A stretch of 64,000 bases of DNA, taken from positions 552,359 through 616,358 of the forward strand of contig CANLVO010000002.1 in assembly GCA_947494645.1 (NCBI GenBank). Reading direction: 5' to 3'. Shown piece after piece: positions 9,478 to 34,494 of this stretch. A model generated the notes under the pieces. The model ran no database searches, was not told the origin of the DNA, and saw nothing but the letters and a program-made list of their open reading frames with translations. The position numbers were made by a program, and so were the translations under genes. Within the stretch, counting starts at the first letter, position 1, and every line of letters starts with the position of its first letter. This DNA comes from an uncultured Litoreibacter sp. (GTDB taxonomy: Bacteria; Pseudomonadota; Alphaproteobacteria; Rhodobacterales; Rhodobacteraceae).

Positions 9478-9479
9478 GA

Positions 9480-10421: not shown

Positions 10422-11737
10422 GCCGGTTCGGTTTCCCTGCTGAAGCCGGCTGCAAACGGTCTAGTGTATGTCAGTCTGGATTTGCTGACGGGGTCTTTGT
10501 TTTCCGATACGGCCAACCATTGCCCAGCGCCGAAGAGGAAGAACACGAAGGAATACATCGCTGTCCAGACATGGACAGTAGCCAAGGTAAAGGTGAGCCC
10601 TATCATGCAGAACATCCACGCCGTCTTGAGATGGTGATATCGGGTGGCGCTGCGGGCCATGCGAACGAGCCCCATGATCCAAGCAGTGGCGAGCAAGACA
10701 AAACCGGGAAATCCATATCGTACGGCGTTTGCGAGCCAGAAATTGTCCATGCTGCCGGAATACATAAAATGCGGGCGGACCCAGTCGCTGAGACCCAATC
10801 CGAAAACAGGGTTGTTCCAGACGTTTACCATGCCCCATTCAAAGATCAGGCTCCGCCAATACGCATTATGTGCCGAGAAAGTGGCATAGCTGAGAAAGAC
10901 GCGGATCGGGGACCGGTTCGAGACCAGATCAACATAAGCGTAGGCCACACTGCAGACGGCCAGCAAGATCAGCCATTTACGCCGGACGCTTGTGAAAGCG
11001 ATGCCCCATGCGATGAGAAAGAGTTGGATGAGCACGGACAGGAACGCTCCGCTGGAGAGGGCAAGAAAAGCGGTAACCGAGATGCAAGCGAGGGCGGTCA
11101 GGCGCGTTACGAGCCCAAGGCGCTGGGACTGACCTATGAAGAACAGGGAAACAGCAGTGGAGCAGAAGAGGCCGAAATGGATCGGGTGGGCGAAGACCGC
11201 TTGCACCCGTTCCAGCCCAAGGCGCGGGGCGATGTCCACAACCTCAACCGACGTGATACCCGGTATGGCGCGGATCAGCTCTATTAAAGGAGGGGAGCCA
11301 GTGATCGTCTCGAACAGGGCGAGGGGCATACAGAGCAGAACAAGCAGTGTTAGGGTCTTAATGAGAGCGTAGAACTGCTGCGGGGTGGTGATACAGATGC
11401 GTGCAAGGAGGTAACCGCCAAGCAGTTCAAGCGCGGTGATGCTTGTGTGCTCGAACGCTTGCGCTGGTGTGTTTAGCGACATGGCGACAGCCACCCAAAG
11501 AACAAACAGAACCAGCGACAGGTCAGTCAAGTTAGGCCGAAAGCCTCTGGTGCGGATGAGGTAAAGGGCGAATGGCACGAGCAGTGTCAACATGTAGAGC
11601 CGCAAGGTCGTCATCTGCAACGGCCCTGCCATGAAGCGAACGGGCAGCACGATGCTGATCATATAGAGCAGCACAGGAAGGGGCAGGCGTGTGGCGGGCG
11701 CATTCATGAGGGTAAATTGCGCGTTAACCGTTATCAT
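10418..11737 (-). CDS. O-antigen ligase/Wzy-type polysaccharide polymerase, multi-pass membrane protein
   Basis: A 439-residue integral membrane protein with about 10-12 predicted hydrophobic helices (for example residues 20-40, 75-95, 125-145, 185-205, 215-260) and one larger periplasmic loop around residues 270-340 (AHNAYWRSLIFEWGMVNVWNNPVFGLGLSDW). The AHN and GxGL...W signature in that loop is typical of O-antigen ligase/ExoQ/Wzy_C proteins. In this context polymerase of the exopolysaccharide repeat unit is more likely than LPS ligase. It is the first gene of a two-gene minus-strand operon with the GT2 gene. Confidence 0.86.
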   Translation of the reverse strand: MITVNAQFTLMNAPATRLPLPVLLYMISIVLPVRFMAGPLQMTTLRLYMLTLLVPFALYLIRTRGFRPNLTDLSLVLFVLWVAVAMSLNTPAQAFEHTSITALELLGGYLLARICITTPQQFYALIKTLTLLVLLCMPLALFETITGSPPLIELIRAIPGITSVEVVDIAPRLGLERVQAVFAHPIHFGLFCSTAVSLFFIGQSQRLGLVTRLTALACISVTAFLALSSGAFLSVLIQLFLIAWGIAFTSVRRKWLILLAVCSVAYAYVDLVSNRSPIRVFLSYATFSAHNAYWRSLIFEWGMVNVWNNPVFGLGLSDWVRPHFMYSGSMDNFWLANAVRYGFPGFVLLATAWIMGLVRMARSATRYHHLKTAWMFCMIGLTFTLATVHVWTAMYSFVFFLFGAGQWLAVSENKDPVSKSRLTYTRPFAAGFSRETEPA

Positions 11738-11795
11738 TCTGTAAAGATTTGCGGCTTTAGGTTTGCTTCATGTTGCCGAATTTCTGGAGCCTGAC

Positions 11796-12308
11796 ATGAG
11801 CGACGCCACGATTGGCAGCCCCCCTTTGAGAAAGGCCCGCCGTCGCGGGTTGAACAGGTTGCACCTGTTGCGTTCCGCGTTGGTGACGGCTCGGCGTGCT
11901 TGGATGGTGTGGGCCTACGGGATGGATATCGCGCCAGATGCCCAGATTTCGCTGTCCGCACGGCTGGATCGCACTTTTCCGGTTGGCGTCCACGTCGGGG
12001 CGCGGAGCTATGTGGCGTTGCAGGCGGTTGTGCTGACCCATGACCGGACGCGTGGGGTGTATCTGCATACAAGGATTGGCGCCGACTGCTTTATAGGGGC
12101 GCGCAGCCTGATCTTGCCGGGGATTTCTGTTGGCGATGGCAGCATTGTTGCGGCGGGTGCGGTGGTGACTCGGGACGTGCCTGCGCGATCCGTTGTGGCT
12201 GGCAACCCGGCGCGGGTCATTCGCGAAGGTGTCCAGACCGGCCCCTATGGGCGGCTGAGCAGTGCGGATGATACGGAACACGCTCTGGCTGAGGCTGGGT
12301 TGACCTGA
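11796..12308 (+). CDS. Hexapeptide-repeat acyltransferase (WcaF/DapH-like)
   Basis: A 170-residue left-handed beta-helix acyltransferase with hexapeptide repeats (AQISLSARLDRTF ... TRIGADCFIGARSLILPGISVGDG) and the C-terminal GNPARVIR acetyl-CoA motif. His in VVLTHDRTRG is the likely catalytic residue. I chose ATG 11796 because GGAG lies 6 nt upstream; an in-frame ATG at 11763 has no ribosome site and would add an unusual 11-residue tail. It is divergent from the polymerase gene and 7 bp before the large SGNH-type gene. This is the second acyltransferase of the locus, suggesting an acylated polymer. Confidence 0.85.
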   Translation: MSDATIGSPPLRKARRRGLNRLHLLRSALVTARRAWMVWAYGMDIAPDAQISLSARLDRTFPVGVHVGARSYVALQAVVLTHDRTRGVYLHTRIGADCFIGARSLILPGISVGDGSIVAAGAVVTRDVPARSVVAGNPARVIREGVQTGPYGRLSSADDTEHALAEAGLT

Positions 12309-12315
12309 ACTCTCT

Positions 12316-14745
12316 TTGCGTACGGTGCAGCGCCTGTTCCGCAACGCCGGGCTGGTCGTGCTAGAAGCTTCGCCGCAGCGGAGCGGTGACGTCTTCGCCC
12401 CTAATTTTCAGAGACATCTCGTGCCTCAGGGAGCAGGCGGTCTTTGGAAACGTGTTTCGGGGACGTATCGTGCTTTTGCTTCCTTTCGGCCGACCAAACC
12501 GAAAGTGACGCATATGATCACAGCGCTGGGCCTTGGATTGGCCTCTATCCCTCAGCCGACCGGCGAGGTGTTTGTCCCGCTCACCACCATTTCAATCTCT
12601 GACTTTTCCCGTGACCGCACGTTGTTTGACAGTGGTGCTGCCTTTGGGCGCAGCGAGGCGTCTGTGCCTGTCTCGGGCACGGGGACGGCTGGCGAGATTG
12701 TCGAGCTGCGGCTGGCACCTGAAGGGCAAACGCCGTCTGCCTGGTCTGATTTTGCAACGATCGATGGCGCAGGGGATTGGTCCGGCAGCATTACCGTGCC
12801 ACGACAAGGGGCTTGGATGCGATTTGAGGTGCGGATCAAGTCGGAACCTGTAACCCGCGCCTTTACGGCCAACCGCTTCGGCGTCGGCCATGTGGTTGCG
12901 CTTTGGGGGCAGTCGGAGGTCGTGCGCATCCGCTCAACCGCTTACAATCAGGTGCCGCCGGAGCCGCTTTTGGGCGACGACAGTGTGCAGGCGATGTGGT
13001 TCGACGGTGGGCCGGTGGTCAAGTATCTGACGAACAATGACCCGCACACCGCTGCGCTTGCGGCGATGGCCAATGTGTTTATGGCGGAGCGGCCAGACGA
13101 CAAGGTTGCGCTGGTGTTCCAAGCGGTCGCGGGCACGGGGTTCCGGGACTTGGTAGATGACGGCAATGCCTCCCGGTCTTGGGCGGATGATGCGGCGTTG
13201 CATGCGTTTGCGACGGCGGATGGGCAGCATGTTGGCCTTCCTTCCGTGTCATGGTTTGCCTCCCCCGGGTCGTTCGCAGAACATTACGAAGAGGCACTAT
13301 TCCCGCTCTTTACGGGCAAGACGGCGGCTGGTGCCCCGGTGAATTTCCCGTCTGAGATTACGTATAATGGCGCGGATACCTATCAGGCGGATCACTGGTT
13401 TGGAGAACTGTATGACCCGACCCACACCAAGTGGATCGCCTTTGGACCGCACAAGTTCGACATCGGCGCGGATATGCGAAATGCAACAGTTTTGCTGGAC
13501 GGCAGCCCTGAAAACAACCTGCAGAACAAAGAGCAGGCGCGCGAGAGCTGGCGGGCGATGGTCGGCAATCCTAATGCCGATGGGTTGTTCTTACCGCTGG
13601 GACTTGAGCCGCTGACTTATCAGAACGGGGTCGACGATGGGCAGGGTGGATGGAGCGACCAGAGCCATCCGGCCTCCGACAGTGACGATGGGGCGCCGAT
13701 GTTTGCTCGGCTTATGGCGCATGCAGTTCTGCAAAGTGCTGGGCTGACCAGTTGGACCATGCCGCTGTTTGATCAAGCGGAGTGGGAGCCTTCGGGCGGC
13801 TATGTCGATATCTGGTCAAGCGCAGGTGCGATAACAACGCCGAGGATCAAACGCGGCTTGCCTGCACTTGGGGCTGATCGGCCGCATTGGACGGATGTGT
13901 TTGGCTGGCAGATCAATGGCGAGCCTGCAGAGCGAGCAGAGGTTCTCGCGGGGCGCGTTCGCCTCTACCCGAACGCCGCCAGTTTTGAGGCCAGCGACAC
14001 GATCCGGTTCGGTGAAGGCGGCGCGACAGGGATGGTAAAATTCCCCGAGGACCATCAGGCACAGACCTATCTGAACCTTCCTATCGTGGATGCCGGGTTG
14101 TCGGGCATTGACGGTGTGCCGGTGCGGCCATTGCCCGACGCGGCAGTGCTTGAGAACCCGCTGGTGCCCATGTCTAGCCTGTTTACCACTGGGGCGACGG
14201 GCCCGTTTTTCTATGACCCCCTCACGCTGGGCGCGGGCGTTGAAAGAATGACGTTCCACTTTGATATGGCGGCAGGGCTGCCGTCAGCTGGGACCAAGAT
14301 GCTGATGACGTCGACGGGCAATTACTTGCGTCTGGAGAGTCTGGCCAATGGTCGTCTGCGGCTACGGGTTCGCGACAGCGGTGGTTCGGTTCATGTCGAT
14401 TATGTTCAAACCGATGCGGGCGTTGTGGCGGATGGCATTCAGGCAGATATCAGGCTGTCGATTGATCTGGTCGCAGGCTTCGCCCGCATCTGGGTCAATG
14501 GGATGCTCGAGATGGATGAAACCTTCGTCTCTGCTACGCCGACGCTGCCAAGTAACCGTAGGTTGCTGCTTTTGGCCAATAGCACGGGCTCCAATCAGAT
14601 CGAAGGTGAGATTACTCGCGTTGCGGTTTGGAAGGACGCCGTTTTGGATAGCGGCTTGCCTGCGCAAGCTCCATACAAAGATCTCGTTGGGCCCGCTTCC
14701 GTCGTCAATGCCGATAGTTGGAAGCAAGGGGATGATGCGACTTAG
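12316..14745 (+). CDS. Large SGNH-hydrolase-like protein with C-terminal lectin-like (LamG/ConA) domain
   Basis: Up to 809 residues. An Ig-like beta domain (about 95-190, VPVSGTGTAGEIVELRL) precedes an SGNH-like core starting at VVALWGQSE (about 195), in which the Ser of GQS is the candidate nucleophile, and ending at WSDQSHPASDSDDG (about 445), whose Asp and His fit the DxxH block. Residues about 625-775 look like a LamG/concanavalin A sandwich (ERMTFHFDMAAG ... LRLSIDLVAGFARIWVNG). No signal peptide is clear. The start is uncertain: TTG 12316 opens the frame and ATG 12514 is an alternative. It could be a polysaccharide esterase or a phage/GTA-type fibre. Its stop is 2 bp from that of the convergent flippase gene. 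Confidence 0.7.
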   Translation: MRTVQRLFRNAGLVVLEASPQRSGDVFAPNFQRHLVPQGAGGLWKRVSGTYRAFASFRPTKPKVTHMITALGLGLASIPQPTGEVFVPLTTISISDFSRDRTLFDSGAAFGRSEASVPVSGTGTAGEIVELRLAPEGQTPSAWSDFATIDGAGDWSGSITVPRQGAWMRFEVRIKSEPVTRAFTANRFGVGHVVALWGQSEVVRIRSTAYNQVPPEPLLGDDSVQAMWFDGGPVVKYLTNNDPHTAALAAMANVFMAERPDDKVALVFQAVAGTGFRDLVDDGNASRSWADDAALHAFATADGQHVGLPSVSWFASPGSFAEHYEEALFPLFTGKTAAGAPVNFPSEITYNGADTYQADHWFGELYDPTHTKWIAFGPHKFDIGADMRNATVLLDGSPENNLQNKEQARESWRAMVGNPNADGLFLPLGLEPLTYQNGVDDGQGGWSDQSHPASDSDDGAPMFARLMAHAVLQSAGLTSWTMPLFDQAEWEPSGGYVDIWSSAGAITTPRIKRGLPALGADRPHWTDVFGWQINGEPAERAEVLAGRVRLYPNAASFEASDTIRFGEGGATGMVKFPEDHQAQTYLNLPIVDAGLSGIDGVPVRPLPDAAVLENPLVPMSSLFTTGATGPFFYDPLTLGAGVERMTFHFDMAAGLPSAGTKMLMTSTGNYLRLESLANGRLRLRVRDSGGSVHVDYVQTDAGVVADGIQADIRLSIDLVAGFARIWVNGMLEMDETFVSATPTLPSNRRLLLLANSTGSNQIEGEITRVAVWKDAVLDSGLPAQAPYKDLVGPASVVNADSWKQGDDAT

Positions 14746-14747
14746 AA

Positions 14748-15983
14748 TTACGGCTGTTTGATGTACAACCTGACTGAAGCCGCAGCACAGCCCGCGGCTT
14801 CGGCGCATGCGGCCACCCACATGATTTCGCTCAACTGCGCCCCCGTCGTGAGTTGTGCGTAGATGACGGGTAACGCTGCGAGCCTTGGAATATTTCCGAT
14901 TGCCGTATTGATTGTGTCGCCCCGCGCCAGTGCGACGATGGCTATGCCGGTCTTAAACACCCGGATCGCATGAAGTACAGCCAAGGCGGGTAGGATAGGG
15001 ACCAAAGCCGCGAAGTCCGAACCAAGCTGCTCGGCCACGAAGCGCCCGAAGGGGATCAAGATAAGCCCAAGCGCCAGACCAGCGAAAAAGCACAGTGTTA
15101 GGGTCTGAATGACATGGGCTCGGGCGACCTGTGGATGGGTGTCAGACCCTGTGAGCAGAGGCAGGAAATAGGCCTGCAAGCTACGTCCCAAGATAAGAGC
15201 CGGGGTCAAAGTCAACGTGAATCCCATTGCCAGAATCGCAAGATTGGTTGGTCCCATCACATGCCCCACAATCAGTTTTTCACCGTGGAACGTGGCCAGA
15301 AGCAGGACCCCGTTCAGGGCAAGGGGCATTCCAAATGAGAAGGTTCTGGAAAGATAGGCGCGGGTCAGGGTGATGGTGAAGCGCCGCTCCGCAAAGAGGT
15401 GCGACATCACCAGGACGCCTGCGGCATGGATGATCGACATCATCAAGAGCAGCCTGAAATCCGGCAGTTCGCTTTGCAGGGGCCAGATCATCAGTAGCGC
15501 AAACGCTGCCGGGGCAAGCTGCGCGCAAATCGACGGGCTGAACCTGCCGAAGCGCTGAAAGCGCCAAGGGTCGAGGTGTACGAGCCCTGCCATAACAGGG
15601 ACGACAGCCAAAAGTTGGAAGGCCCAATCGGCTTGGGGCACTTGCAGGAACACGGCAACAGGCTTTGCGCAGACGAAAATAACCACGCCCCCGAGCAATC
15701 CGCGACAAAGCTGAACCACATGCAGCCATCCTTGGAAGGATGGGCTGTCGCCGTCTTTCTCTCTGACAATCAATTGCTGTGCGCCGAGGGTGGTGGCCAT
15801 CTCAACGGCAGAAACCACGATGGCAAAACTGGCGGCTATGCCGAATTGCTCCGCGCCGATGATATGGGCAGCCAAGATGTTACGGGCCAAGGTCAGCAAA
15901 GCCACACCCGCATTGCCAGAGAGCAACACAGCCAGAGGATGTGCGCGTGCCATCACGGGGCTCAGGGTGGAGATCATCGTCAT
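14748..15983 (-). CDS. Wzx-like lipid-linked oligosaccharide flippase
   Basis: A 411-residue polytopic membrane protein of the MATE/MOP superfamily (polysaccharide biosynthesis protein), with about 12 hydrophobic helices distributed over the whole length. The N-terminal SGNAGVALLTLARNILAAHIIGAEQFG is the typical first-helix motif of Wzx proteins. It is expected to flip undecaprenyl-linked repeat units to the periplasmic side for the polymerase. It is divergent from the FrhB-like gene over a 59-bp gap that contains a TTTACC/GGTAAA inverted repeat (15983-16023). Confidence 0.86.
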   Translation of the reverse strand: MTMISTLSPVMARAHPLAVLLSGNAGVALLTLARNILAAHIIGAEQFGIAASFAIVVSAVEMATTLGAQQLIVREKDGDSPSFQGWLHVVQLCRGLLGGVVIFVCAKPVAVFLQVPQADWAFQLLAVVPVMAGLVHLDPWRFQRFGRFSPSICAQLAPAAFALLMIWPLQSELPDFRLLLMMSIIHAAGVLVMSHLFAERRFTITLTRAYLSRTFSFGMPLALNGVLLLATFHGEKLIVGHVMGPTNLAILAMGFTLTLTPALILGRSLQAYFLPLLTGSDTHPQVARAHVIQTLTLCFFAGLALGLILIPFGRFVAEQLGSDFAALVPILPALAVLHAIRVFKTGIAIVALARGDTINTAIGNIPRLAALPVIYAQLTTGAQLSEIMWVAACAEAAGCAAASVRLYIKQP

Positions 15984-16042: not shown

Positions 16043-17269
16043 ATGGGTCGCCACCCGAGTATCATCGAAATGACCGTCGCCTCTGACCTATGTACAGGGT
16101 GCGGTGCCTGTGCGGCCTTAGCGCCTGACTCAGTTCAAATGCATCAGGCTGATGATGGATTCATCAGACCCCGCAGTGTTGGTGCGATGTCCCGGGCGCA
16201 GGCCAAAATGATTGGGGATATTTGCCCCGGTCGGTCGCAGGTTGGGTCTGCAGACGCAGCAAATGAACACCCTATTTGGGGGGCTTACGCTCAGGTCTCG
16301 CAGGGCTGGGCAAAAGATGCCGAGTTGCGCGATGCTGGTGCCTCGGGCGGCGCGCTTTCGCAGATGCTCGTTTGGTTGCTGGAGACGGAGCAGGTTGACG
16401 CTGTCGTGCACATTGCGGCCCATGCTGAAGCGCCGATGGCCAATCAGATCACGTTGTCGCAAACCCGTTTGGACGTCTTGAATGCGGCGGCGTCGCGCTA
16501 TGCGCCTTCTTCCCCACTGCTGATCGTGTCGAAACTGCTTGAGACTGATGGGCGTTATGCGTTTGTTGGCAAGCCTTGCGACGTTGCAGGGCTGCGCCTT
16601 TGGGCTGACAAAGACCCCCGCGTGAACGAACGCTTCCCGGTTATGCGGTCGTTCTTTTGTGCCGGTGTTCCTTCCTTGAAAGGGGCGGAGCAGGTGGCAG
16701 ACTATCTTGGCGTAGCTCCTTCCGATGTCGCACGCTTCAAGTATCGAGGCGGTGGCTGGCCGGGATTGACCGAGGTTGAAACAAAGGACGGCCAAACCCG
16801 CAGTATGCAATACCGCGAAAGCTGGGGTGATATCTTGTCGCCTCAGGTTCAGCATAGGTGCCGCATTTGCGCCGATGGGGTTGGGCTGGCTGCAGACATC
16901 GCTTTCGCGGATGCTTGGCAGACGGATGCCGACGGCTACCCGCTGTTTGAAGAACAAGACGGGCGCAGCGTTATTCTTGCGCGTAATTCGGTTGGTTTGA
17001 ACCTCGTGAATGAGGCGGTGCGTGCTGGTGTTTTACACAGCGAGCCGCTCTGCATTGATGCGTTGGAAGCGATGCAGCCTGGGCAAGTGCGTCGTCGCAG
17101 GGAGCTGTTGGGTCGGCTCGCGGGACGCCTTTTGGTGGGCCTGCCTATCCCTAAATATCGCGATCTAGGTGTCTGGGCTTGTGCACGGCAGGCCGGGATG
17201 GCGCGTACCCTACGAGCGATGCTTGGTACGGCGCGACGGGTATTCTTGAAACATAGGTGGCAGTCATGA
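16043..17269 (+). CDS. FrhB-like (coenzyme F420 hydrogenase/dehydrogenase beta subunit family) iron-sulfur protein
   Basis: A 408-residue cytoplasmic protein with an N-terminal ferredoxin-like motif (CTGCGACAALAP, Cys at about 18, 21, 24) and FrhB-family N- and C-terminal domains. The conserved GASGGALSQML segment, a VGKPCDVAGLR loop and a later HRCRICADG cysteine pair are visible. Family members bind flavin and Fe-S clusters. In polysaccharide loci they often sit beside pyruvyl transferase genes, as here (ATGA overlap 17266-17269). Their role there is not established; F420 itself is not expected in this group. Possibly an oxidoreductase acting on a sugar or its activated form. Confidence 0.82.
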   Translation: MGRHPSIIEMTVASDLCTGCGACAALAPDSVQMHQADDGFIRPRSVGAMSRAQAKMIGDICPGRSQVGSADAANEHPIWGAYAQVSQGWAKDAELRDAGASGGALSQMLVWLLETEQVDAVVHIAAHAEAPMANQITLSQTRLDVLNAAASRYAPSSPLLIVSKLLETDGRYAFVGKPCDVAGLRLWADKDPRVNERFPVMRSFFCAGVPSLKGAEQVADYLGVAPSDVARFKYRGGGWPGLTEVETKDGQTRSMQYRESWGDILSPQVQHRCRICADGVGLAADIAFADAWQTDADGYPLFEEQDGRSVILARNSVGLNLVNEAVRAGVLHSEPLCIDALEAMQPGQVRRRRELLGRLAGRLLVGLPIPKYRDLGVWACARQAGMARTLRAMLGTARRVFLKHRWQS

Positions 17270-18513
17270 ACGCTATTCCATTCCTCACGCGGCCTCGTCG
17301 CGATTTGCAAGTTTGCCTGATCCTCCATGCGTCGCGGTCCAATAATCTTGGCGTGGGGGCACTGACCGTGGCACAAGTTGACCTGCTGCGCGGACTGGCG
17401 ATTGAGCTGCACCTGAACCTGAGCATCACCTTGCTGGATTGGCATGATGACGGCGCGCCCTGCGTATCGGGCGATGACATCACGATCGTTCCAATACGTG
17501 GGAAGGATCTGCTGACCAAGTCGGGTGCATACGCGCATCTTGAGGCAGCGGACATTGTGCTCGACATCGGCGCGGGCGACAGCTTTGCGGATATTTACGG
17601 GACCAAGCGGCTCAAGCGGGTGTTCTGGCTGAAGTATCTTACTCATTTGGCGGGGACACCGCTGGTGCTTGCACCGCAAACCTATGGACCGTTTACCAAC
17701 CCCGTTTCGCGAGCTTTGGCGCGGAGAAGCATTAGCCTGTCGGCGTTGGTTTGCGCGCGCGATAAAGCCTCAGTAGCGCATTTGCGCGACATTGGAGTGA
17801 CGCGCGATGTGGTTGTCGCCTCGGACGTGGCGCTGCGCCTGCGTAAGGGAGGTGCGTTGTCCGTAGCGGAACGACCTCGGGTTGGGTTGAATGTGTCTGG
17901 GCTGATGATGTCGGGCGGGTATAACAGCGCGAACCAGTTCGGACTGAGTGTCGACTATCCGGCACTGATGGAGCGGCTGATCGGGCGGCTTCTGGCCCAT
18001 CCTGAGCAGCCGGAAATTCACCTTATCCCTCATGTGATCTGTCCTGACATGCCGGTGGAAGACGACGTCGCTGCGATGCAGACGCTTCAGGAGATTTTCC
18101 CTTCCGTCGTTCTGGCGCCTGCCTTCGCAACACCGTCGGAGGCCAAGGGGTACATATCCGATATGTCTTTCATGGTGGGCTCGCGCATGCATGCCTGCAT
18201 AGCTGCGCTATCCAGTGGTGTGGCCGTGGTTCCGTTGGCCTACAGCCGCAAGTTCTCTGGGTTGTTTGGGGCTTTGGGCTATGATCATGTCGCCGATTGC
18301 ACCGCAATGACATCGGACAGGATTTTGAACACTGTCATGGACGGATTTGAAAGGCGGTCGACCCTCGCCAAGGATGCACGGGCGGCGACGCTTGAGGGAA
18401 CAGCACGGCTCGCCGCTTATGAAGACAGGCTGCGCCTGCTCATGGACGGTTTGGCACGGTCAATGGAAAGGCCCGCCACGCAGCGCGCGGCGGGCCAATT
18501 GACACCGGTCTAA
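17266..18513 (+). CDS. Polysaccharide pyruvyl transferase
   Basis: A 415-residue GT-B-like enzyme of the polysaccharide pyruvyl transferase family (CsaB/ExoV/WcaK type), which moves the enolpyruvyl group of phosphoenolpyruvate onto a sugar as a ketal, adding negative charge to the polymer. Conserved features are the N-terminal NNLGVGALTVAQVDLL loop, the DIGAGDSFADIYG segment near residue 100 and the C-terminal MVGSRMHACIAALSSGVAVVPLAYSRKFSGLF motif. I chose ATG 17266, which overlaps the preceding stop; a GTG 9 nt upstream is the alternative. It is the last gene of its operon. Confidence 0.9.
   Translation: MNAIPFLTRPRRDLQVCLILHASRSNNLGVGALTVAQVDLLRGLAIELHLNLSITLLDWHDDGAPCVSGDDITIVPIRGKDLLTKSGAYAHLEAADIVLDIGAGDSFADIYGTKRLKRVFWLKYLTHLAGTPLVLAPQTYGPFTNPVSRALARRSISLSALVCARDKASVAHLRDIGVTRDVVVASDVALRLRKGGALSVAERPRVGLNVSGLMMSGGYNSANQFGLSVDYPALMERLIGRLLAHPEQPEIHLIPHVICPDMPVEDDVAAMQTLQEIFPSVVLAPAFATPSEAKGYISDMSFMVGSRMHACIAALSSGVAVVPLAYSRKFSGLFGALGYDHVADCTAMTSDRILNTVMDGFERRSTLAKDARAATLEGTARLAAYEDRLRLLMDGLARSMERPATQRAAGQLTPV
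18470..18496 (+). terminator. GC-rich hairpin at the 3' end of the pyruvyl transferase gene
   Basis: Arms GGCCCGCC (18470-18477) and GGCGGGCC (18489-18496) are perfectly complementary around an 11-nt loop. It lies just inside the coding end, 17 nt before the stop, and has no T-run, so it may slow or end transcription toward the convergent spike-base gene. Weak candidate. Confidence 0.3.
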
Positions 18514-18539: not shown

Positions 18540-18800
18540 TCACCAAAGGGCGATGATGGCGGCAGCGGTTGTCCCGGTGGCGCGCACAATGCTGGCGCGG
18601 ACGGGCAGAATGCTGCCGGAGGGTACGGCCTCAAAGACAAGCGTGTCGCCGTCAGCCAAGGTCAAGGAGATGTCTCCGCCCTGGCCTACGTAGAGGGCGC
18701 GACTGACCTGCGACAGATCTGTTGTGTCATTAGGGGTGACCGGCGTGCCGCCGCGCGCCGGAGAAATCGGAGTTGTCGGGAAGTTCGAAAATTTATCCAT
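18540..18800 (-). CDS. Gene transfer agent/phage head-spike base protein (RcGTA Rcc01079/GhsA-like)
   Basis: An 86-residue acidic protein without cysteine. The pattern TPNDTTDLSQVSRALYVGQG - D - SLTLADGDT - VFEAVPSGSILPVRASIVRATGTTA - IIALW matches, from memory, the small 'spike base protein, RCAP_Rcc01079 family' of Rhodobacteraceae, whose founding member forms the base of the head spikes with which the gene transfer agent binds the recipient capsule. ATG 18800 is preceded by AGGA 5 nt upstream; the frame is open further upstream but that part is not conserved-looking. It is the last gene of the minus-strand operon after the CapD-like gene (64 bp). Confidence 0.72.
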   Translation of the reverse strand: MDKFSNFPTTPISPARGGTPVTPNDTTDLSQVSRALYVGQGGDISLTLADGDTLVFEAVPSGSILPVRASIVRATGTTAAAIIALW

Positions 18801-18864: not shown

Positions 18865-20034
18865 TTAAAATTTGGAAAGTCCTGCGTTCGTAGCTTTGCC
18901 AAACTCTGCACCGGCATGTGCTGGCGTTTGGTCTGCTGCAATCCAACGGTTGATCGTTTCCCGCGCGGCAGCGGGATCATTCTTATCTATTGCGGTCTCT
19001 AAGGCGCGTAATGTGCTGGCAAGCTCCAGCTCAGACAAACACCTTTCGTGAACCTGCAAAATCCGGTCGTGTCGGGTTGGGGTACGGCATTGGCTGAGTG
19101 ACAGCTCTTCGTGCAGCTTCTCCCCCTCGCGCAGGCCGGTGACTTCGATTGCGATATCACCATCGGGATTTTGGGCGTTATGAATGCTGAGCCCTGCGTC
19201 GTTGATCATATGTCCTGCGAGCGCCCGAACCGGGATGGGCGGACCCATATCGAGCATGAAAACCTCGCCGCCCTGCGCCATGTGACCAGCCGCCAAGACC
19301 AGCTGAGCGGCCTCTTGCGGGGTCATGAAATAGCGGGTCGTGTCGTCATGGGTCAGTGTTACGGGACCGCCCTTGGCAATTTGTTTTTGAAACAGCGGAA
19401 AGACAGAGCCCGAGGAGCCCAACACATTGCCGAAACGGACTATGGAGAACACCGTTTCCGAGGGCCTGCTGGCCAGATCCTGCACGATCATTTCGGCAAA
19501 GCGTTTCGAGGCGCCCATGACATTGGCGGGGCGCACGGCTTTGTCGCTTGAAATGAGGACGAAACGGGACACCCCTTCCGCCTTGGCCTGCGCCGCCAGA
19601 ACCCGGGTGCCCATTACATTGTTCGACAGCCCCGAAATTGGGTTTCGCTCGACCATCGGAACATGTTTGTAGGCGGCCGCGTGGAAGATTGTGTCGACAT
19701 GGTGGGCGCGCAACGTATCCCTGACCAGCTGCGCATTGCTGACGGAGCCCAGAACAGCAACAAGCTTGAAACCGTGTGTTTGGGCCAGCTGAGATAGTGC
19801 CAGTTCGATTGAGTAGAGAGCCAGCTCGCTTTGCTCAAAAAGGACGAGCTTGCGAATATCGCCGTTGATCAACTCGTGACAAAGCTGCGACCCGATGGAC
19901 CCACCGGCACCTGTTACCATCACAACCCTGCCCGCATAGTCGGTTTGGCGTCCGCTTCTGCGTCGTGGTTTCGACACGGCCGATGGGCGGTCGCGGGTCG
20001 TCAAAGCACTTAGTAAGGTCTGGAAATCTGTCAC
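18865..20034 (-). CDS. CapD-like nucleotide-sugar 4,6-dehydratase/epimerase (soluble form)
   Basis: A 389-residue extended short-chain dehydrogenase of the FlaA1/CapD family, which converts UDP-N-acetylhexosamine to a 4-keto-6-deoxy sugar, an early step to amino-deoxy sugars. The NAD(P)-binding motif VTGAGGSIGSQL (about residues 39-50), SSDKAVRPANVMGASKR (Lys retained, Tyr replaced by Met as in this family) and RFGNVLGSSGSV are visible. Unlike the long membrane members there are no N-terminal transmembrane helices. It follows the initiating sugar transferase in the same operon. Confidence 0.88.
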   Translation of the reverse strand: MTDFQTLLSALTTRDRPSAVSKPRRRSGRQTDYAGRVVMVTGAGGSIGSQLCHELINGDIRKLVLFEQSELALYSIELALSQLAQTHGFKLVAVLGSVSNAQLVRDTLRAHHVDTIFHAAAYKHVPMVERNPISGLSNNVMGTRVLAAQAKAEGVSRFVLISSDKAVRPANVMGASKRFAEMIVQDLASRPSETVFSIVRFGNVLGSSGSVFPLFQKQIAKGGPVTLTHDDTTRYFMTPQEAAQLVLAAGHMAQGGEVFMLDMGPPIPVRALAGHMINDAGLSIHNAQNPDGDIAIEVTGLREGEKLHEELSLSQCRTPTRHDRILQVHERCLSELELASTLRALETAIDKNDPAAARETINRWIAADQTPAHAGAEFGKATNAGLSKF

Positions 20035-20106: not shown

Positions 20107-20739
20107 TCAGGCGGGCATCTGTGAGTGATTTGGCCGCTTCGAGACCTGTCGCAATGTGCGCCATAGTATCCAAATATCGAGCGTCAGATTGGCGTTCTGG
20201 TGGTAGATCAAGTCTAGCCGAGCCTTGGGTGGGATACAGCGACGGCAATAGACGCGGTCGGTTTCCTCGGCTGATTTGCACTCGGCGAGCAGTCGCGCTT
20301 CGCGCTGGTTGAATGTCAGGGTTGCCAGGCCAGTCACCCCGGGTCGTGACCTCAACACGTCCCCGTAAATATCAGGGAAGCGCTCGACATATTCACGCAG
20401 CGGCGGGCGAGGACCGACAATGCTGATATCACCTTTCAGGATGTTCCAGAGCTGGGGTAGCTCATCGAGGCGGCTTTGCCTGAGCTTGGCCCCGAACGGG
20501 GTGATACGATGCGCTTTAGTCGGCCCCGTGACGCCCGTATCGCCGGGTTGCGTGGTCATAGTGCGGAATTTTAACAGCCCGAAAGCGTGGTCGGGTGTCT
20601 TCATCCTTTCGGAGACGTAAAACACAGGGCCGTTGCCTTGCCGCCAGATGCGTAGGGATATCCAGATCAAAACGGGAGAGAGCAGCAGCACGGCAAGGCT
20701 CGCAAGCGCGATATCCATCAGGCGTTTTGATGCGCTCAA
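20107..20739 (-). CDS. Undecaprenyl-phosphate sugar phosphotransferase (WbaP/PglC-type), initiating enzyme
   Basis: A 210-residue monotopic membrane enzyme that transfers a sugar-1-phosphate from a nucleotide sugar to undecaprenyl phosphate, the first committed step of the exopolysaccharide. An N-terminal re-entrant/transmembrane helix (ALASLAVLLLSPVLIWISLRIW) is followed by KFRTM, the catalytic LDELPQLWNILKGDISIVGPRP block and RPGVTGLA. The start is TTG 20737-20739, overlapping the previous stop as TTGA, with GGAG 8 nt upstream; an ATG at 20718 is the alternative. Only the short C-terminal catalytic type is present. Confidence 0.9.
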   Translation of the reverse strand: MSASKRLMDIALASLAVLLLSPVLIWISLRIWRQGNGPVFYVSERMKTPDHAFGLLKFRTMTTQPGDTGVTGPTKAHRITPFGAKLRQSRLDELPQLWNILKGDISIVGPRPPLREYVERFPDIYGDVLRSRPGVTGLATLTFNQREARLLAECKSAEETDRVYCRRCIPPKARLDLIYHQNANLTLDIWILWRTLRQVSKRPNHSQMPA

Positions 20740-21536
20740 TCCTGTTGCTCCATACTTTGCCAATCGGCGACAACCTCTGCCGCGCCGCCGTTGATCGGTA
20801 CCAAGCCCTGCAACCGGCTGACATCTAGATGCACTGATCTGATGGCCGTTTCGGGCGCGGGGGTCGGGGTCCAACCTAACTCCGCATGTGTGAGCAATTC
20901 GTTAAGGCCTGCCGGGATGGGACAGGCGAGGTTCAATGTCGTTGGCAGGGGCGTTCGCTGGGAGAGTTCCGCTAGGTTTGCAAGCGTCGACGCCAGCGCA
21001 TAGGGGCCAATGTAGCTGCGGGTCGGATAGGCGCCATCCGGGAACTGATCCAGAACAAAGCTGCTGTGTCCTTGCCCCAGCAACGCGTCTGCCCCCGCGA
21101 CGTTTCCGATCCTCAAGCTGGTGGCGTTTGGGAAATCGGCTGCCAGGCGTTCCATATCGACCTTTGCCTTGCCATATGCTGAGGCTGGCTGCAGCGCAGT
21201 TTGCTCAGCCAATGGCCCGGGCTGCGCACCATAAACCGCGGCGCTTGAGGCCAGCAAAACAGGCTTTCCTTCACTTGCGTTCAGCGTGGCGCGGGCAAGT
21301 TCTGAGTTGAGGCAAAAGGGCTTGTTTGTCGTTTCGGAGGTGACGCCGGCGAGCAAGAGCACGGCGTTGCTGTCAGAGATCGCGTTCGCCAAGCTTGTTG
21401 GGCTTTCCAGGATATCAAAGTGGCCGTCACCCTCGGATCGGTGATGCCAGACAGGCTCTAATCCAGCGCTATCGGGCCAACATTTCTTGAGCACCCTTCC
21501 CAGCTTCCCGCCGCTGCCAAGGATCAGAAAACGCAT
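20736..21536 (-). CDS. NAD-dependent epimerase/dehydratase family protein
   Basis: A 266-residue Rossmann-fold short-chain dehydrogenase. The N-terminal FLILGSGGKLGRVL binds the dinucleotide, SSAAVYG and SAYGKAK (Tyr-x-x-x-Lys) supply the catalytic residues. It probably makes a nucleotide sugar for the polymer, but which one cannot be read from sequence. It starts 3 bp after the rlmH stop, so it is the junction gene between the ribosome-associated genes and the polysaccharide genes and may be co-transcribed with rsfS-rlmH. Confidence 0.83.
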   Translation of the reverse strand: MRFLILGSGGKLGRVLKKCWPDSAGLEPVWHHRSEGDGHFDILESPTSLANAISDSNAVLLLAGVTSETTNKPFCLNSELARATLNASEGKPVLLASSAAVYGAQPGPLAEQTALQPASAYGKAKVDMERLAADFPNATSLRIGNVAGADALLGQGHSSFVLDQFPDGAYPTRSYIGPYALASTLANLAELSQRTPLPTTLNLACPIPAGLNELLTHAELGWTPTPAPETAIRSVHLDVSRLQGLVPINGGAAEVVADWQSMEQQD

Positions 21537-21539
21537 GGG

Positions 21540-22010
21540 TTATTCGCGATGATAAGGGGCGCCGCCAAGGATGGAGGCGGCGCGGTACAGTTGTTCGCAA
21601 AGCATGACCCGAGCCAGCATGTGGGGCCAGACCATCTTACCGAAGGACACCAGGTGGTCGGCGTCACTCCGTAATTCGGGCGCGATGCCGTCGGCCCCGC
21701 CAACGACGAACGCGACATCCTGACTTCCGGTGTCGCGCCACTTGGCGAGCAATTTGGAGAACTCGGGGCTGGTTGTGCTGCGCCCGCGCTCGTCGAGCCC
21801 GCAGATCACGGCGCCTTTTGGGATGGATTTGCGTAGCAATTCCGCCTCGGCCTGTTGGCCGCCGCCCTTCTTGGCCTCGACCTCGGTAATCTTGGCAGGT
21901 CCGAGCCCCAAGCCACGGCCAGAGCGGTCAAAGCGGGTCAGGTAGTCGTCAATCAGGGTCTGTTCCGGCCCCGCACGCAGGCGGCCGACGGCGCAGATAT
22001 GTACCTTCAT
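21540..22010 (-). CDS. rlmH: 23S rRNA (pseudouridine1915-N3)-methyltransferase
   Basis: A 156-residue SPOUT-class methyltransferase that methylates pseudouridine 1915 in helix 69 of 23S rRNA on assembled 70S ribosomes. The trefoil-knot C-terminal motif FVVGGADGI (about residues 105-113) and LARVMLCEQLYRAASILGGAPYH are unmistakable, and the N-terminal MKVHICAVGRL fixes the start at 22010. The ATG shares one base with the rsfS stop (TGATG), so translation is coupled. Order rsfS-rlmH is conserved in most bacteria. Confidence 0.96.
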   Translation of the reverse strand: MKVHICAVGRLRAGPEQTLIDDYLTRFDRSGRGLGLGPAKITEVEAKKGGGQQAEAELLRKSIPKGAVICGLDERGRSTTSPEFSKLLAKWRDTGSQDVAFVVGGADGIAPELRSDADHLVSFGKMVWPHMLARVMLCEQLYRAASILGGAPYHRE

Positions 22011-22432
22011 CAATGAGCAGGGACTTCCGTGTCCGTGCCGCCGGGCAGCCACATCTTCTCGAGTTGGTAGAACTCGCGCACTTCAGGGCGGAAGATATGC
22101 ACTACGACGTCGCCGGTATCGAGCAGCACCCAGTCACCGGCGGCTTTGCCTTCGATCTTGGCGATCCGGTCGAAATCGTCTTTCAGCTGAGACGACAGTT
22201 TATCGGCCAAAGCCGTGACCTGCCGGGTGGACCGGCCTGAACAGATGACCATGTAATCGGCGATCTCAGAGCGACCGCGCAGATCAATCTGCACGATGTC
22301 TTCGGCCTTTTCGGTATCCAGAGAGGTCACAATCCAATCCAGCAGCTCTTCGCTGGTGGCATTCGCGTGTGGGGCGACCGAGTTGGTCTTTTTCAGAGCG
22401 TTCGCGGCGCCCAGATCAGTGTTTTGAGACAG
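22010..22432 (-). CDS. rsfS: Ribosomal silencing factor RsfS; start appears to be CTG
   Basis: RsfS binds ribosomal protein uL14 and blocks subunit joining in starved cells. The core DKAEDIV-type segment (here EKAEDIVQIDLRGRSEIADYMVICSGRSTRQV) is clear. Homology extends upstream of the first canonical in-frame start (GTG 22330) through ATSEELLDWIVTSL. In that extended frame there is no ATG, GTG or TTG before an in-frame stop near 22438. A CTG at 22430-22432 has a perfect GGAGG (22441-22445) 8 nt upstream, giving 140 residues. Either CTG is the real start or a sequence error hides it. It is followed by rlmH. Confidence 0.88.
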   Translation of the reverse strand: MSQNTDLGAANALKKTNSVAPHANATSEELLDWIVTSLDTEKAEDIVQIDLRGRSEIADYMVICSGRSTRQVTALADKLSSQLKDDFDRIAKIEGKAAGDWVLLDTGDVVVHIFRPEVREFYQLEKMWLPGGTDTEVPAH

Positions 22433-22741: not shown

Positions 22742-23188
22742 ATGAAATTTCTGTCAGTTGTCGCGCTTGGGCTGGCCACTATGGCCGCACCATCCTTTGC
22801 AGACGGTCACGCCACAGGCGATGCGGCCGAAGGGGAAAGCGCTTTCAAGAAGTGTAAGTCCTGCCACATGATCGTGGCGGACGATGACACAGTGATCCAA
22901 AAGGGCGGTAAGACCGGCCCTAACCTGTATGGCGTCTACAAGCGTGTACCGGGCTCAGTTGAGGGCTTCAAATACGGCAAATCCATCGCGTCCGTCGGCG
23001 AAGCCGGTGTCATGGATGACGGCTGGAACGAAGAGCAATTCGTCAGCTATGTCGCCGACCCAAAAGAATGGCTGAAAGAGATTCTGGACGATTCCAAGGC
23101 CAAGTCGAAAATGTCATTCAAACTGAAGAACGCGGAAGACGCGGCCAATATCTGGGCGTATCTGGTGTCTGTCGGTCCTGCCGAGTAA
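22742..23188 (+). CDS. cycA: Cytochrome c2/c551-type soluble periplasmic electron carrier
   Basis: A 148-residue class I cytochrome c with a Sec signal peptide (cleavage after PSFA, about residue 20), one haem-binding CKSCH (residues 39-43) and a distal Met ligand in SKMSFKL near residue 122. The length and the insertions around KTGPNLYGVYKRVPGSVEGFKY fit the cytochrome c2 family, which shuttles electrons from the bc1 complex to the photosynthetic reaction centre and to oxidases. Its place at the edge of the photosynthesis cluster supports that role. A rho-independent terminator follows at 23211. Confidence 0.87.
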   Translation: MKFLSVVALGLATMAAPSFADGHATGDAAEGESAFKKCKSCHMIVADDDTVIQKGGKTGPNLYGVYKRVPGSVEGFKYGKSIASVGEAGVMDDGWNEEQFVSYVADPKEWLKEILDDSKAKSKMSFKLKNAEDAANIWAYLVSVGPAE

Positions 23189-23210
23189 AACACCCGACAT
23201 TTGATTGCGG

Positions 23211-23240
23211 AAAGGGCGGCTCTGACGGGGCCGCCTTTTT
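23211..23240 (+). terminator. Rho-independent terminator after the cytochrome c2 gene
   Basis: A GC-rich stem (AAAGGGCGGC, 23211-23220, with GCCGCCTTTTT, 23230-23240) closes a 9-nt loop and ends in a run of five T, 22 bp after the cytochrome stop. It separates this gene from the convergent B12-binding gene. Confidence 0.85.
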
Positions 23241-23270
23241 CTATGGGGCTAGGCTGTTCTTAGCTCTGGC

Positions 23271-24104
23271 CTATGTAGGTATCAGGCGACTTTCCCAAAG
23301 GCGTTGCAGGGCCGCGCGTGACTCGTCGTAATCCACAGCCATCGCATCGACGCCGCTGAGCTGGATAAGGTCGGCATAGCTGTCAACGATATGACCACCC
23401 ACAAAGATCGAGGCATCCGGGGTGCAGATCCGGACTGCCATCACCAGTTTGGCCAGGCCGGGCATAGCGTGCTCACCTGCTGCAGAGAGTCCGATGATCA
23501 CAGGTTGAGCCTCTGCAATACGCTCGATCAATTGTTCATGCGTTTCGCCAATCGCCAGATCAATTGTCCATCCGTCTGCGCGCAGCAGGTCACTGGCCAT
23601 TTTCACGCCAAGGGTATGGGTTTCGCCGGGAACGCTGCACAAGAAGGAGCTTTTGCCGGATGTGGTCGTGGTGTTGCGCCGCATCAATGGGGCCAGGACG
23701 CGCAAGATGGCGTATATCCGCGCCGTGCCAATCGTTACTTGGGCAAAATCGACCGTGTCGGCTTCCCACCATTTTCCCAAAAGGCGGGCGGCCTCAGCGA
23801 GGTAGACGAGGTAGATCGATTTCTCGCTATGGCCTGCATCCTGTTGGGCTGAGACCAAGCGTCCCGCGGCTTTGTTGTCCTCCGAGATCAGCGCGGTCGC
23901 TAACTCGTTGATCATGTCGGGTGTAAAGGAGAGACCCAAACTGGGTTGGCTACCAAATTGCTGCGGCAGGCGAGACAGAACCTCACGTGCCAAGGACTCC
24001 ACTGCCGATACCGGCAAACGGGCCTTCAACGTCTTTGTATCCGTAACACTTTTTTCATAGAGGTCGTGCTGAAACAGCTCTCCCCCCGTCCCTATTGAAG
24101 ACAT
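23271..24104 (-). CDS. Second AerR/PpaA-type cobalamin-binding protein
   Basis: A 277-residue protein with the two-part B12 module: a helical cap (about 60-145, with the LLGKWWEADTVDFAQVTIG segment) and a Rossmann-like B12-binding domain (about 153-270). The cobalt-ligating signature is present as GETHTLG, His163. Downstream VGGHIV and MAVDYDESRAALQRLW match the family. It has no methyltransferase or DNA-binding domain, so it resembles PpaA/AerR, the B12- and light-dependent antirepressors of PpsR/CrtJ. It lies on the same strand, 126 bp after ppsR, while the better positional match to ppaA lies before ppsR. Likely a paralogous regulator; target unknown. Confidence 0.83.
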   Translation of the reverse strand: MSSIGTGGELFQHDLYEKSVTDTKTLKARLPVSAVESLAREVLSRLPQQFGSQPSLGLSFTPDMINELATALISEDNKAAGRLVSAQQDAGHSEKSIYLVYLAEAARLLGKWWEADTVDFAQVTIGTARIYAILRVLAPLMRRNTTTTSGKSSFLCSVPGETHTLGVKMASDLLRADGWTIDLAIGETHEQLIERIAEAQPVIIGLSAAGEHAMPGLAKLVMAVRICTPDASIFVGGHIVDSYADLIQLSGVDAMAVDYDESRAALQRLWESRLIPT

Positions 24105-24230
24105 GTGTCCCCCGAATCCGATCGCTGACGAGACGATCAGCCCTGTTTCATAGGTAATGGTAGCGCGTCAGTGTGAGTAAACAAGGTTGTTGTTCACTGA
24201 ACCGTGATGATGGTTTGGGGTTTGATGGGC

Positions 24231-25634
24231 CTAGAGCAGACCGTGCTTGCGCAACTTCACATAGAGGGACTGGCGCGATAGCCCCAGCATTTCAGCCGCG
24301 GCGACCCGGTTATTCGAGGTCAACTCAACAGCCGTCTCAATGCACATTTTCTCGACGACATCGGTGGTTTTGGCGACGATGTCTTTCAGCGCTTGGCTGC
24401 CGATCAGCTCTACGACGGACTTTCTGTCCACCTCAGTCAGCTGCGCGGCCGGGGCACGAAGCGCGTCGATTCGGTTGGCGTCGCGGAAAATCAGGGCAAA
24501 AACCGTGCTATCTTGCGCTTGCAGCCTGGTGGTCGAAATCTCGATGGGCCGCTCGGTGCCATGCTCACTGACCAGATGGGTCGCATAAAGCCGCATCGCA
24601 CCGGACCGGGTCGCATTGTCGAGCAAGACGTTGAGGTCGACACTGCCACGGCTCAGGAAATCTGCGATACTGCGGCCCTGAATGCTGCCGGTGTGGGTGA
24701 CGTCCGACAAATTCATGAACGCGCCATTGGCGCTTAGAATGTTGCCGGTCTCGGCAATGAACACCACGCCATCCACGCCGTTCTTGTAAAGCGCGTCCAA
24801 TTGGCTTTGTAGCGCATCGCCCTGCGGGGCAGCTTCGTTCTTTTGGGTCACACGGCACAGCAACATATGCTCGCCGCCAGAGCGGAACAGCTTGGGCGAA
24901 ATCGTCACTTCTCCGCGTTTCGCCACGGAAAAGGCGTCCACGGGTCCCGGCGTGTTGGCGCTGGCTGCCTCTGTAAGATTGCTGATCAGATGGGCGGACT
25001 GCTTGCCTTGGAACAGGTCGGCAAAGCTTTCACCAACAAGGTTCTTCTCGGCGGTATCAAAGAAGACGGCGCCGGCAGGATTTGTGTCGGTGATCTTGCC
25101 GTCCGAGACACGCACGAAGAGTGTCGGCTCGGCATTGGCGGACATCAGCACGCGGAAGCGGGTGTCGTATTCCCGCTGCGCCTCGTAATCCTTCTCCAGC
25201 GCGATTTGCGCTGCCACCAATTGCTGCTGGATCTCGGCAATGGGGCGCAGGTCGCGGCCCAGCATCAGCAAGGCGCCATCCGTTCCGATCTTGTGGAAGC
25301 TGTAGCGAATGGGAAACTCTGGCTGACCATTGCGGGCCGTATGGTTCAGCTCTACCGGCAGAACGGTGTCTTTGTCTTCAACAAACGCTTCCAGACGCTG
25401 GCGGAACTTGGGCAGGCTTTCGACAGTCAGCTCTTCGTCAAGCATCCGCCCTTCCCAAGTGTCGAGCCCCGATTGGGGCATGAAACTTGGACTGGCCATC
25501 ACGCCCAGCACTTGCCCCTGCTTAGAGATAATCAGAGCCAGGTCGGAAATGTTCGAGATGATCTCGGTCACAACGTCCGGCTCGATCATCGGGATCAGGC
25601 CGACGGTCCATGTGACGTCACCTTGCGGTCTCAT
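24231..25634 (-). CDS. ppsR: Photosynthesis repressor PpsR/CrtJ
   Basis: A 467-residue redox-responsive transcription factor that represses bch, crt, hem and puc-type promoters under oxygen. An N-terminal PAS-like region (about 20-130), a Q-linker helix (about 130-155), two PAS domains (about 160-265 and 280-390) and a C-terminal Fis-type helix-turn-helix (NNRVAAAEMLGLSRQSLYVKLRKHGL, about 441-466) are in order. The only two cysteines, Cys260 (LLCRVTQ) and Cys431 (KMCIETA, beside the HTH), match the two redox cysteines of Rhodobacter PpsR. GGAG lies 7 nt before the ATG. Its operators TGT-N12-ACA occur through the cluster. Confidence 0.96.
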   Translation of the reverse strand: MRPQGDVTWTVGLIPMIEPDVVTEIISNISDLALIISKQGQVLGVMASPSFMPQSGLDTWEGRMLDEELTVESLPKFRQRLEAFVEDKDTVLPVELNHTARNGQPEFPIRYSFHKIGTDGALLMLGRDLRPIAEIQQQLVAAQIALEKDYEAQREYDTRFRVLMSANAEPTLFVRVSDGKITDTNPAGAVFFDTAEKNLVGESFADLFQGKQSAHLISNLTEAASANTPGPVDAFSVAKRGEVTISPKLFRSGGEHMLLCRVTQKNEAAPQGDALQSQLDALYKNGVDGVVFIAETGNILSANGAFMNLSDVTHTGSIQGRSIADFLSRGSVDLNVLLDNATRSGAMRLYATHLVSEHGTERPIEISTTRLQAQDSTVFALIFRDANRIDALRAPAAQLTEVDRKSVVELIGSQALKDIVAKTTDVVEKMCIETAVELTSNNRVAAAEMLGLSRQSLYVKLRKHGLL

Positions 25635-25671
25635 TGTGCAGCTCCGGGCTGACGGTTATTTTTGGGGCGGA

Positions 25672-26457: not shown

Positions 26458-26554
26458 GTAACGGGCCCTCCAATGTGGTTTCCGGTCCAGGAGAAGCGCA
26501 GGCAACGCAAGTTTATCGTTTATAGGCACATATGCTGGGTAATGCCATAGGACA

Positions 26555-26572
26555 TGTCAAATAGTATTGACA
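26555..26572. promoter_or_regulatory. PpsR/CrtJ operator 1, ppaA-bchF intergenic
   Basis: TGTCAAATAGTATTGACA, an exact TGT-N12-ACA palindrome 97 bp before the ppaA ATG. On the minus strand its edge forms a TTGACA -35-like hexamer facing ppaA, so PpsR may autoregulate the ppaA-ppsR operon here. The pair with the second site suggests cooperative or looping repression of the divergent promoters. Confidence 0.82.
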
Positions 26573-26652
26573 CCGAAATTGGCTGATGACGCATATATCA
26601 GTGATCTTTGAGGATTACGTGTTTGGCGCCAATGCCAAATCGCTTTCTCATG

Positions 26653-26670
26653 TGTAAATCAAAGTTGACA
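26653..26670. promoter_or_regulatory. PpsR/CrtJ operator 2, bchF promoter
   Basis: TGTAAATCAAAGTTGACA, an exact TGT-N12-ACA palindrome extended to TGTGT/ACACA by flanking bases. It lies 51 bp before the bchF ATG, and its right half is a TTGACA -35-like hexamer (26665-26670) for rightward transcription. Start-to-start spacing from operator 1 is 98 bp. Confidence 0.85.
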
Positions 26671-26721
26671 CATGTCTCCCTACCTGCCAAATTTTCATCA
26701 ATACAGTCCAAGGGGGACAGC

Positions 26722-34494
<7,773 letters not shown>

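Follow-up and report, generated by a model that had tools for sequence, protein, structure and literature searches.

An 86-aa protein encoded in a capsule locus of an uncultured Litoreibacter sp. belongs to the family of head-spike base proteins of gene transfer agents (GTAs), and the genome that carries it has lost most of its GTA structural core. We consider it likely that the gene is a GTA head-spike base and that it was orphaned, together with its fiber, by a recent deletion of that core. Dozens of Rhodobacterales species, scattered among relatives with an intact core, carry the identical codon-exact deletion. The gene lies at 18540-18800 on the minus strand of the 64,000-nt stretch of DNA that we analyzed (hereafter, "the window"; positions given without a contig or locus name refer to it).

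The 86-aa product matches NCBIfam NF048002.1 ("spike base protein, RCAP_Rcc01079 family") over the full length of the profile (positions 1-85 of 85) and scores 111 bits (cut-off 28; E = 2.5e-32), which bears out the family membership that an earlier note on this DNA had proposed from the letters alone. Searching the PDB with phmmer returns Rcc01079 itself (6tb9, E = 1.8e-10), followed by the Carin1 phage spike base (8cjz, E = 3.8e-5); a Pfam search of the protein gave no match, and PHROG 12296 ("tail fiber protein") also matches it. The AlphaFold2 model (pLDDT 78.9, pTM 0.68), whose input included 25 phage relatives, points to the jellyroll fold, as its first fold match in the PDB is 6tb9 of the Rhodobacter capsulatus GTA, RcGTA (E = 2.1e-5, TM 0.70, rmsd 6.6), and its second is 8cjz. 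The protein has Ile12 where Rcc01079 has the Glu12 described as coordinating a cation in capsid docking (PMC7296036), a detail of docking and not one that defines the family. Within its own genome the gene is the sole match, the search for other copies having found none besides 18540-18800; as a query, the protein found homologues in 26 of the 101 genomes searched, including 18 of 21 genomes of the genus. Spike bases are also common in phages: from two scans we retained 93 loci on viral contigs that carry homologues, taking the best 80 of 113 in the second scan.

The capsule context reported in the earlier note holds up, with CapD-like, transferase and epimerase genes upstream of the spike base on the same strand and separated by short gaps. 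The minus-strand order is rsfS and rlmH (21540-22330, assigned by eye; a pair conserved upstream of the spike base across the genus), an NAD-dependent epimerase-like gene (20736-21536, PF01370), the initiating sugar (polyprenyl glycosylphospho-) transferase (20107-20874, PF02397), a CapD-like nucleotide-sugar dehydratase (18865-20034, PF02719) and the spike base. Gaps of 64 and 72 bp separate CapD, transferase and spike base; no minus-strand terminator-like site was found between CapD and the spike base, and a terminator-like hairpin (18470-18496, minus) lies 43 bp past the spike-base stop, although 5 such sites in the region, versus 3.7 expected, is compatible with chance. Past the spike base come a convergent polysaccharide pyruvyl transferase (17257-18513, plus, PF04230), an iron-sulfur protein of the FrhB/FdhB family (16043-17269, plus, PF04432), a Wzx-like flippase (14748-15983, minus, PF13440), the fiber discussed below, a hexapeptide acetyltransferase (11763-12308, plus, PF14602), a Wzy-like polymerase or O-antigen ligase (10418-11737, minus; PF04932 at 34.1 bits versus a cut-off of 31.7), and a chain-length regulator with three glycosyltransferase-like genes (7092-10421, by eye), of which the regulator and one glycosyltransferase have homologues in related loci. 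Directly after the capsule locus, at 22742-33578, we see by eye a cytochrome c gene, a regulator and bacteriochlorophyll-synthesis genes.

Synteny was read in 16 loci of the genus as far as each contig reaches. In all 16, the spike base lies between rlmH (or an inserted CapD/transferase block) and the convergent pyruvyl transferase. CapD is present in five and the transferase without CapD in one, so that the operon with CapD and transferase is not genus-wide; in 10 of the 16 the spike base directly follows rlmH.

The partner of the spike base is probably encoded at 12514-14745 (plus strand), a gene absent from the earlier note. In RcGTA, the head fiber Rcc01080 is described as binding the base pentamer through residues 2-10, IALGLGLGL (PMC7296036), and a comparable alternating hydrophobic-glycine N-terminus, MITALGLGLAS, is encoded in the locus of the spike base itself. 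The open frame begins at 12316 (12316-14745, plus), and the start at 12514, which gives 743 aa, was chosen by the conserved N-terminus, MITALGLGLASIPQ. The fiber is present in 14 of the 16 genus capsule loci and matched in 17 of 21 genus genomes (two of them partially). Its body shows a weak C-terminal LamG/ConA-like match, seen in 4 of 16 members, and a search of the fiber profile against the PDB gave no match; the body also contains what we take to be SGNH-hydrolase-like motifs. A 53% identical relative, with no obvious anchor, lies directly downstream of tail genes on a viral contig (IMGVR_UViG_3300048837_000139, L227, 4929-5975). The link between the fiber and Rcc01080 is probable: it draws on the anchor, synteny and the phage relative, and no family match joins the two proteins.

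The anchor itself follows spike bases elsewhere. In the 93 viral-contig loci, 18 of 38 distinct next genes have an alternating hydrophobic-glycine start versus 53 of 1485 background ORFs (p = 1.5e-16), with a pattern written post hoc, after viewing examples, and a background that comes from the same loci and includes non-genes. A stricter start pattern, written earlier, occurs twice within 1.5 kb downstream of a spike base versus 0.14 expected. In 29 further loci (19 from other genera and 10 from earlier relatives, including G015), a same-strand next gene exists in 19 and carries the motif in eight (6/13 and 2/6). The strict fiber-start motif, searched in 20 loci, matches in eight and falls in the next gene after the spike base in only one. 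In two other genera, a 47-49% identical fiber is encoded convergently and right beside the spike base in three loci (L388, L391 and L049). In a locus of another genus (L389), the gene that follows the spike base scores slightly under the cut-off for GDSL lipase. In the capsule locus of G015 (L402, 2374-6777, minus), a 1467-aa ORF has a hydrophobic N-terminus, and part of it is 31% identical to the first third of the fiber.

The capsule link has a precedent. Spike genes of R. capsulatus are reported also to adjoin capsule genes and to be co-regulated with them (PMC10218006), so the present locus is a further case, with a fiber of another size. Of the capsule link proposed in the earlier note, the co-location therefore stands, but it is not special to this genome, being common to R. 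capsulatus in that report (PMC10218006). The proposal of matched evolution finds some support, in signs that spike module and capsule share a linked fate: G015 has a GTA capsid 79% identical to that of its relative G016 together with a spike base only 44% identical to the one studied here and a different capsule locus, and two genomes described below (G002 and G007) have lost parts of the module, G002 along with most of its capsule locus.

The GTA locus of this genome (L031) consists of a small-terminase-like ORF (by eye; no Pfam match), an 833-aa chimeric ORF and a DUF2793 gene. Neither an intact terminase nor an intact g15 is present; both are cut into the one chimeric ORF (contig G000:C1, about 1506329-1508830; L031 3330-5831, minus), in which Terminase_6N leads into the final third of GTA_TIM, with Phage-tail_3 and Rcc01698_C after it, and PF13547 is truncated in this genome. 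In the intact cluster of G016, 11,375 nt lie between the two points joined here, i.e., about 11.4 kb are missing, and that stretch includes the capsid gene and, judged by position, those for the portal and most of the tail. Neither the capsid family PF05065 nor the GTA capsid of G016 (the orthologue of Rcc01687) has a match in this genome; a GTA capsid of the G016 type is present in 15 of 21 genomes of the genus. Second GTA-like capsids, 38-39% identical and probably from prophages, were seen in two relatives (G009:C1:837614-838624 and G015:C3:305117-306106). For this genome, the GTA part of the earlier note's reading is not borne out: with no capsid match and a core reduced to a terminase::megatron remnant, no GTA head is left for the spike. 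A search for a GTA head-tail cluster found only remnants of structural genes at the core locus, and for this reason the absence of GTA structural genes, which that note had named as an objection to its own reading, largely applies. With the core deleted, base and probable fiber are left as an intact but orphaned head-spike module.

This genome, G002 and G017 have the same terminase::g15 codon junction, and each groups with or among intact relatives. It joins ...WxDE of the terminase to xGC... of the g15 TIM barrel, codon-exact and in frame; the terminase side is what we take to be Walker B. A search of an 84,980-species collection with the junction DNA pattern, which misses variants such as GCPA, returned 47 stretches, of which 46 are true fusions; besides L031, loci with the fusion include L160-L206 except L199, and L351-L357. 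A quick tree was built from 76 rows (51 fused and 25 intact, short-part rows dropped and some genomes present in both collections); its well-supported branches force at least 9 state changes, and the minimum on the whole tree is 16. In the genus of G103, whose sequence is identical to a Ruegeria record, 10 of 54 genomes have a junction-spanning match, seven of them sequence-checked. Many of the fused frames are open for about 835 aa; those of L152, L160, L190, L192 and L204 are clearly broken, and further ones stop where the retrieved DNA ends. In pairwise comparisons, fused genes have a dN/dS of 0.04-0.25 and intact ones 0.04-0.34, with 4 of 22 pairs saturated in the C-part, and an open chimeric remnant with intact-like dN/dS could mean that the remnant is used.

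Several routes to this junction were considered and set aside. A homology-driven deletion finds little to act on: across 25 intact clusters, the two sites have an exact run of just 2-8 nt in common (median 3), and many other pairs of sites are more alike. A shared or horizontally copied deletion allele was rejected because third-position identity near the junction is not consistently higher among fused alleles. On the N side, identity is elevated over codons 11-20 (p = 0.0015) and 1-20 (p = 0.005), by label permutation that ignores phylogeny; there is no excess on the C side and none in Ruegeria. Where comparable, fused genes consist of lineage-native parts up to the junction. No reciprocal junction, as from an excised circle, was found in viral contigs or in 404 loci, and no fused junction in viral contigs. 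An apparent junction in a Shinella record proved to be ordinary g15, and the contig break in G005 lies elsewhere than at the junction. Two contigs begin exactly at the g15 junction codon GAA (L155 of G052 at position 1, and L158 of G205 at the contig end), which suggests an assembly fork between deleted and intact forms in the sample. The exactness of the junction may stem from selection acting on the fused protein or from a site-specific process, or else be an unforeseen artifact. A search of the literature, in the portions of it that were accessible, turned up no paper on this particular deletion, which does not show it to be unpublished.

Loss of the core has left little trace on the genes that remain. 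With G006 as outgroup, nonsynonymous/synonymous counts on the branch of this genome versus that of GTA-positive G016 are 14/87 versus 12/69 for the fiber, 1/6 versus 1/10 for the base and 11/63 versus 8/59 for the g15/GTA remnant, and tests with four outgroups each all give p >= 0.13 (FrhB and the G006 triple of rlmH were excluded, having too few usable codons). The codon counts of fiber and base give no sign that selection on the spike has relaxed in this genome without a GTA, and we set that reading aside. For the remnant, one of nine tests differs (G002 versus G010 with outgroup G014, p = 0.0065, but not with outgroup G017). The fiber of G017, which has no capsid match, gives 36/68 versus 21/74 in G010 (p = 0.06) in one of three comparisons, a hint of possible relaxation. 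As base, fiber and remnant all appear constrained, a recent loss suffices to explain them without a new function; and because the remnant shows no relaxation even with no particle left to serve, recent loss is the simpler reading.

Relatives with no capsid match differ in what they have kept. G017 and G003 retain base and fiber, the fiber of G003 being shortened to a 706-aa open frame. G002 keeps the base and has lost the capsule locus from mid-FrhB on, including the fiber (L404 156-2228); G007 has lost the base and holds a fiber remnant of ~206 N-terminal aa beside rlmH (L403 9239-10419). In G011 (79% complete), neither base nor fiber was seen. Across the genus, the base is found in 14 of 15 capsid-positive versus 4 of 6 capsid-negative genomes (p = 0.18). 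In a family sample of 395 genomes, a spike base is present in 132 of 329 with other GTA_TIM matches, 5 of 20 with the fusion and 5 of 46 without GTA_TIM; 132/329 versus the combined 10/66 (fused or no GTA_TIM gene) gives Fisher p = 7e-5, in hand-tallied counts that ignore phylogeny and include some spike or GTA_TIM matches from prophages. The association is driven by genomes without GTA_TIM (5/46 versus 132/329, p = 6e-5), the fused ones alone giving p = 0.24 (5/20). The 20 fused genomes, this one and 19 others, were selected on E-value and on the range of the match; in 18 of them the sequence contains the junction, and the other two begin at it.

The pair could instead do its work without a GTA, as a capsule-modifying lectin or esterase or by arming other particles such as those of infecting phages. 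We regard this as unlikely. Both genes are intact and constrained in a genome without a capsid match, and G003 likewise keeps the base and its 706-aa fiber, as this idea would predict; the fiber-like segment (31%) of the 1467-aa ORF in the capsule locus of G015 and the near-cut-off GDSL lipase match beside the base of L389 also fit it. However, the GTA remnant is equally constrained, so that constraint shows no separate job, the fiber N-terminus is a spike anchor with no evident signal peptide (by eye), and G002 and G007, both without a capsid match, have lost the fiber and the base plus most of the fiber, respectively. That the spike base is instead a prophage part, or a phage remnant that landed beside capsule genes, seems very improbable. 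The 93 viral-contig loci with homologues and the phage spike base in the PDB (8cjz) give that idea some ground, but positions 8000-30000 contain no recognized phage genes except the fiber (most ORFs judged by eye), the position is conserved in 16 genus loci, and no capsid of PF05065, the family searched for, is in the genome.

Two further doubts concern the deletion and the linkage. The core might be intact in the living strain, the deletion being an assembly artifact or a minority form, and an identical junction in many assemblies is indeed suspicious; the G052 and G205 contigs that start exactly at the junction codon also speak for it. Yet many projects have produced assemblies with the junction, no match to the capsid turns up at another place in the genome, and the joined sites share 2-8 nt only, too little for assembly collapse; in addition, the length stated in the title equals the listed length for seven contigs, although listed values may share metadata. 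We consider an artifact or minority form quite unlikely. About as little probability attaches to an incidental capsule linkage, in which the gene simply follows rsfS-rlmH and capsule genes happen to adjoin. The 10 of 16 genus loci with the base directly after rlmH favor such an accident. Against it, 6 of 19 loci from other genera, picked among the best-scoring spike-base matches, have homologues of at least two genes of this capsule locus no farther than about 8 kb from the base, and another 10 loci include 3 that have them near the base (a short match in one of these), counts made with no random-locus control; the link also holds in R. capsulatus as reported (PMC10218006). Of the 95 ORFs that lie closest to the base in these 19 loci, 7 encode family-2 glycosyltransferases, again with no random-locus control.

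The reading that we prefer, an orphaned GTA head spike, draws on what is known of RcGTA, in which capsule binding and base-fiber assembly have been described (PMC7296036, PMC10218006). In a GTA-producing relative, five copies of the base would sit on a capsid vertex and hold one fiber, the base pentamer gripping it by its alternating leucine-glycine N-terminus; the body of the fiber would attach to the capsule that the surrounding locus produces, letting particles recognize kin. Keeping base, fiber and capsule genes together would leave spike and receptor matched through exchange or loss of the locus. In the present genome, a recent deletion of the GTA core would then have left base and fiber intact. 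The sequences themselves establish the family membership, the anchor signature, the synteny, the loss of the core and the lack of a capsid match, whereas the pentamer, capsule binding, matching and recency of the loss are what we infer.

Compared with the RcGTA head spike (Rcc01079, or GhsA, as base and Rcc01080, or GhsB, as fiber), the base here is alike in family, length and modeled fold, and both systems have the alternating leucine-glycine fiber anchor (PMC7296036, PMC8601537, PMC10218006) and, in the published account, the linkage to capsule genes (PMC10218006). The fiber is 743 aa here versus 325 aa in RcGTA, and the likeness noted is that of the anchor. Unlike in RcGTA, base and fiber lie on opposite strands with three capsule genes between them, and the 11.4 kb stretch that holds the GTA capsid gene has been lost. 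The Carin1 spike base, second in both sequence and fold matches, ends alike at the C-terminus, but it belongs to a phage, unlike the gene here. The Rhodobacterales GTA core locus is described as rcc01682-rcc01698 followed by g16 and cysE1 (PMC9552610). What remains here keeps that order, with the small-terminase-like ORF (by eye), the terminase N-part, the g15 C-part, the DUF2793 gene and, beyond the remnant, a cysE-like gene (by eye); unlike an intact core, it lacks about 11.4 kb from the terminase to the g15 TIM barrel.

These genomes constitute a natural experiment on the upkeep of GTAs, with close relatives that have and have not kept the particle, most of which keep the capsule locus and several the spike module. 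A spike base beside an alternating hydrophobic-glycine fiber start could, moreover, serve as a simple genomic signature for finding spike fibers with bodies unlike any known one. Tentatively, and with more doubt than confidence, one may go further: the same deletion would remove the core repeatedly, perhaps beside the intact form within populations, as a programmed or strongly favored rearrangement that switches the GTA off, and some carriers would keep the capsule-matching half of the spike without the cost of the particle. The recurrence of an identical core deletion makes the question of GTA loss and upkeep directly testable.
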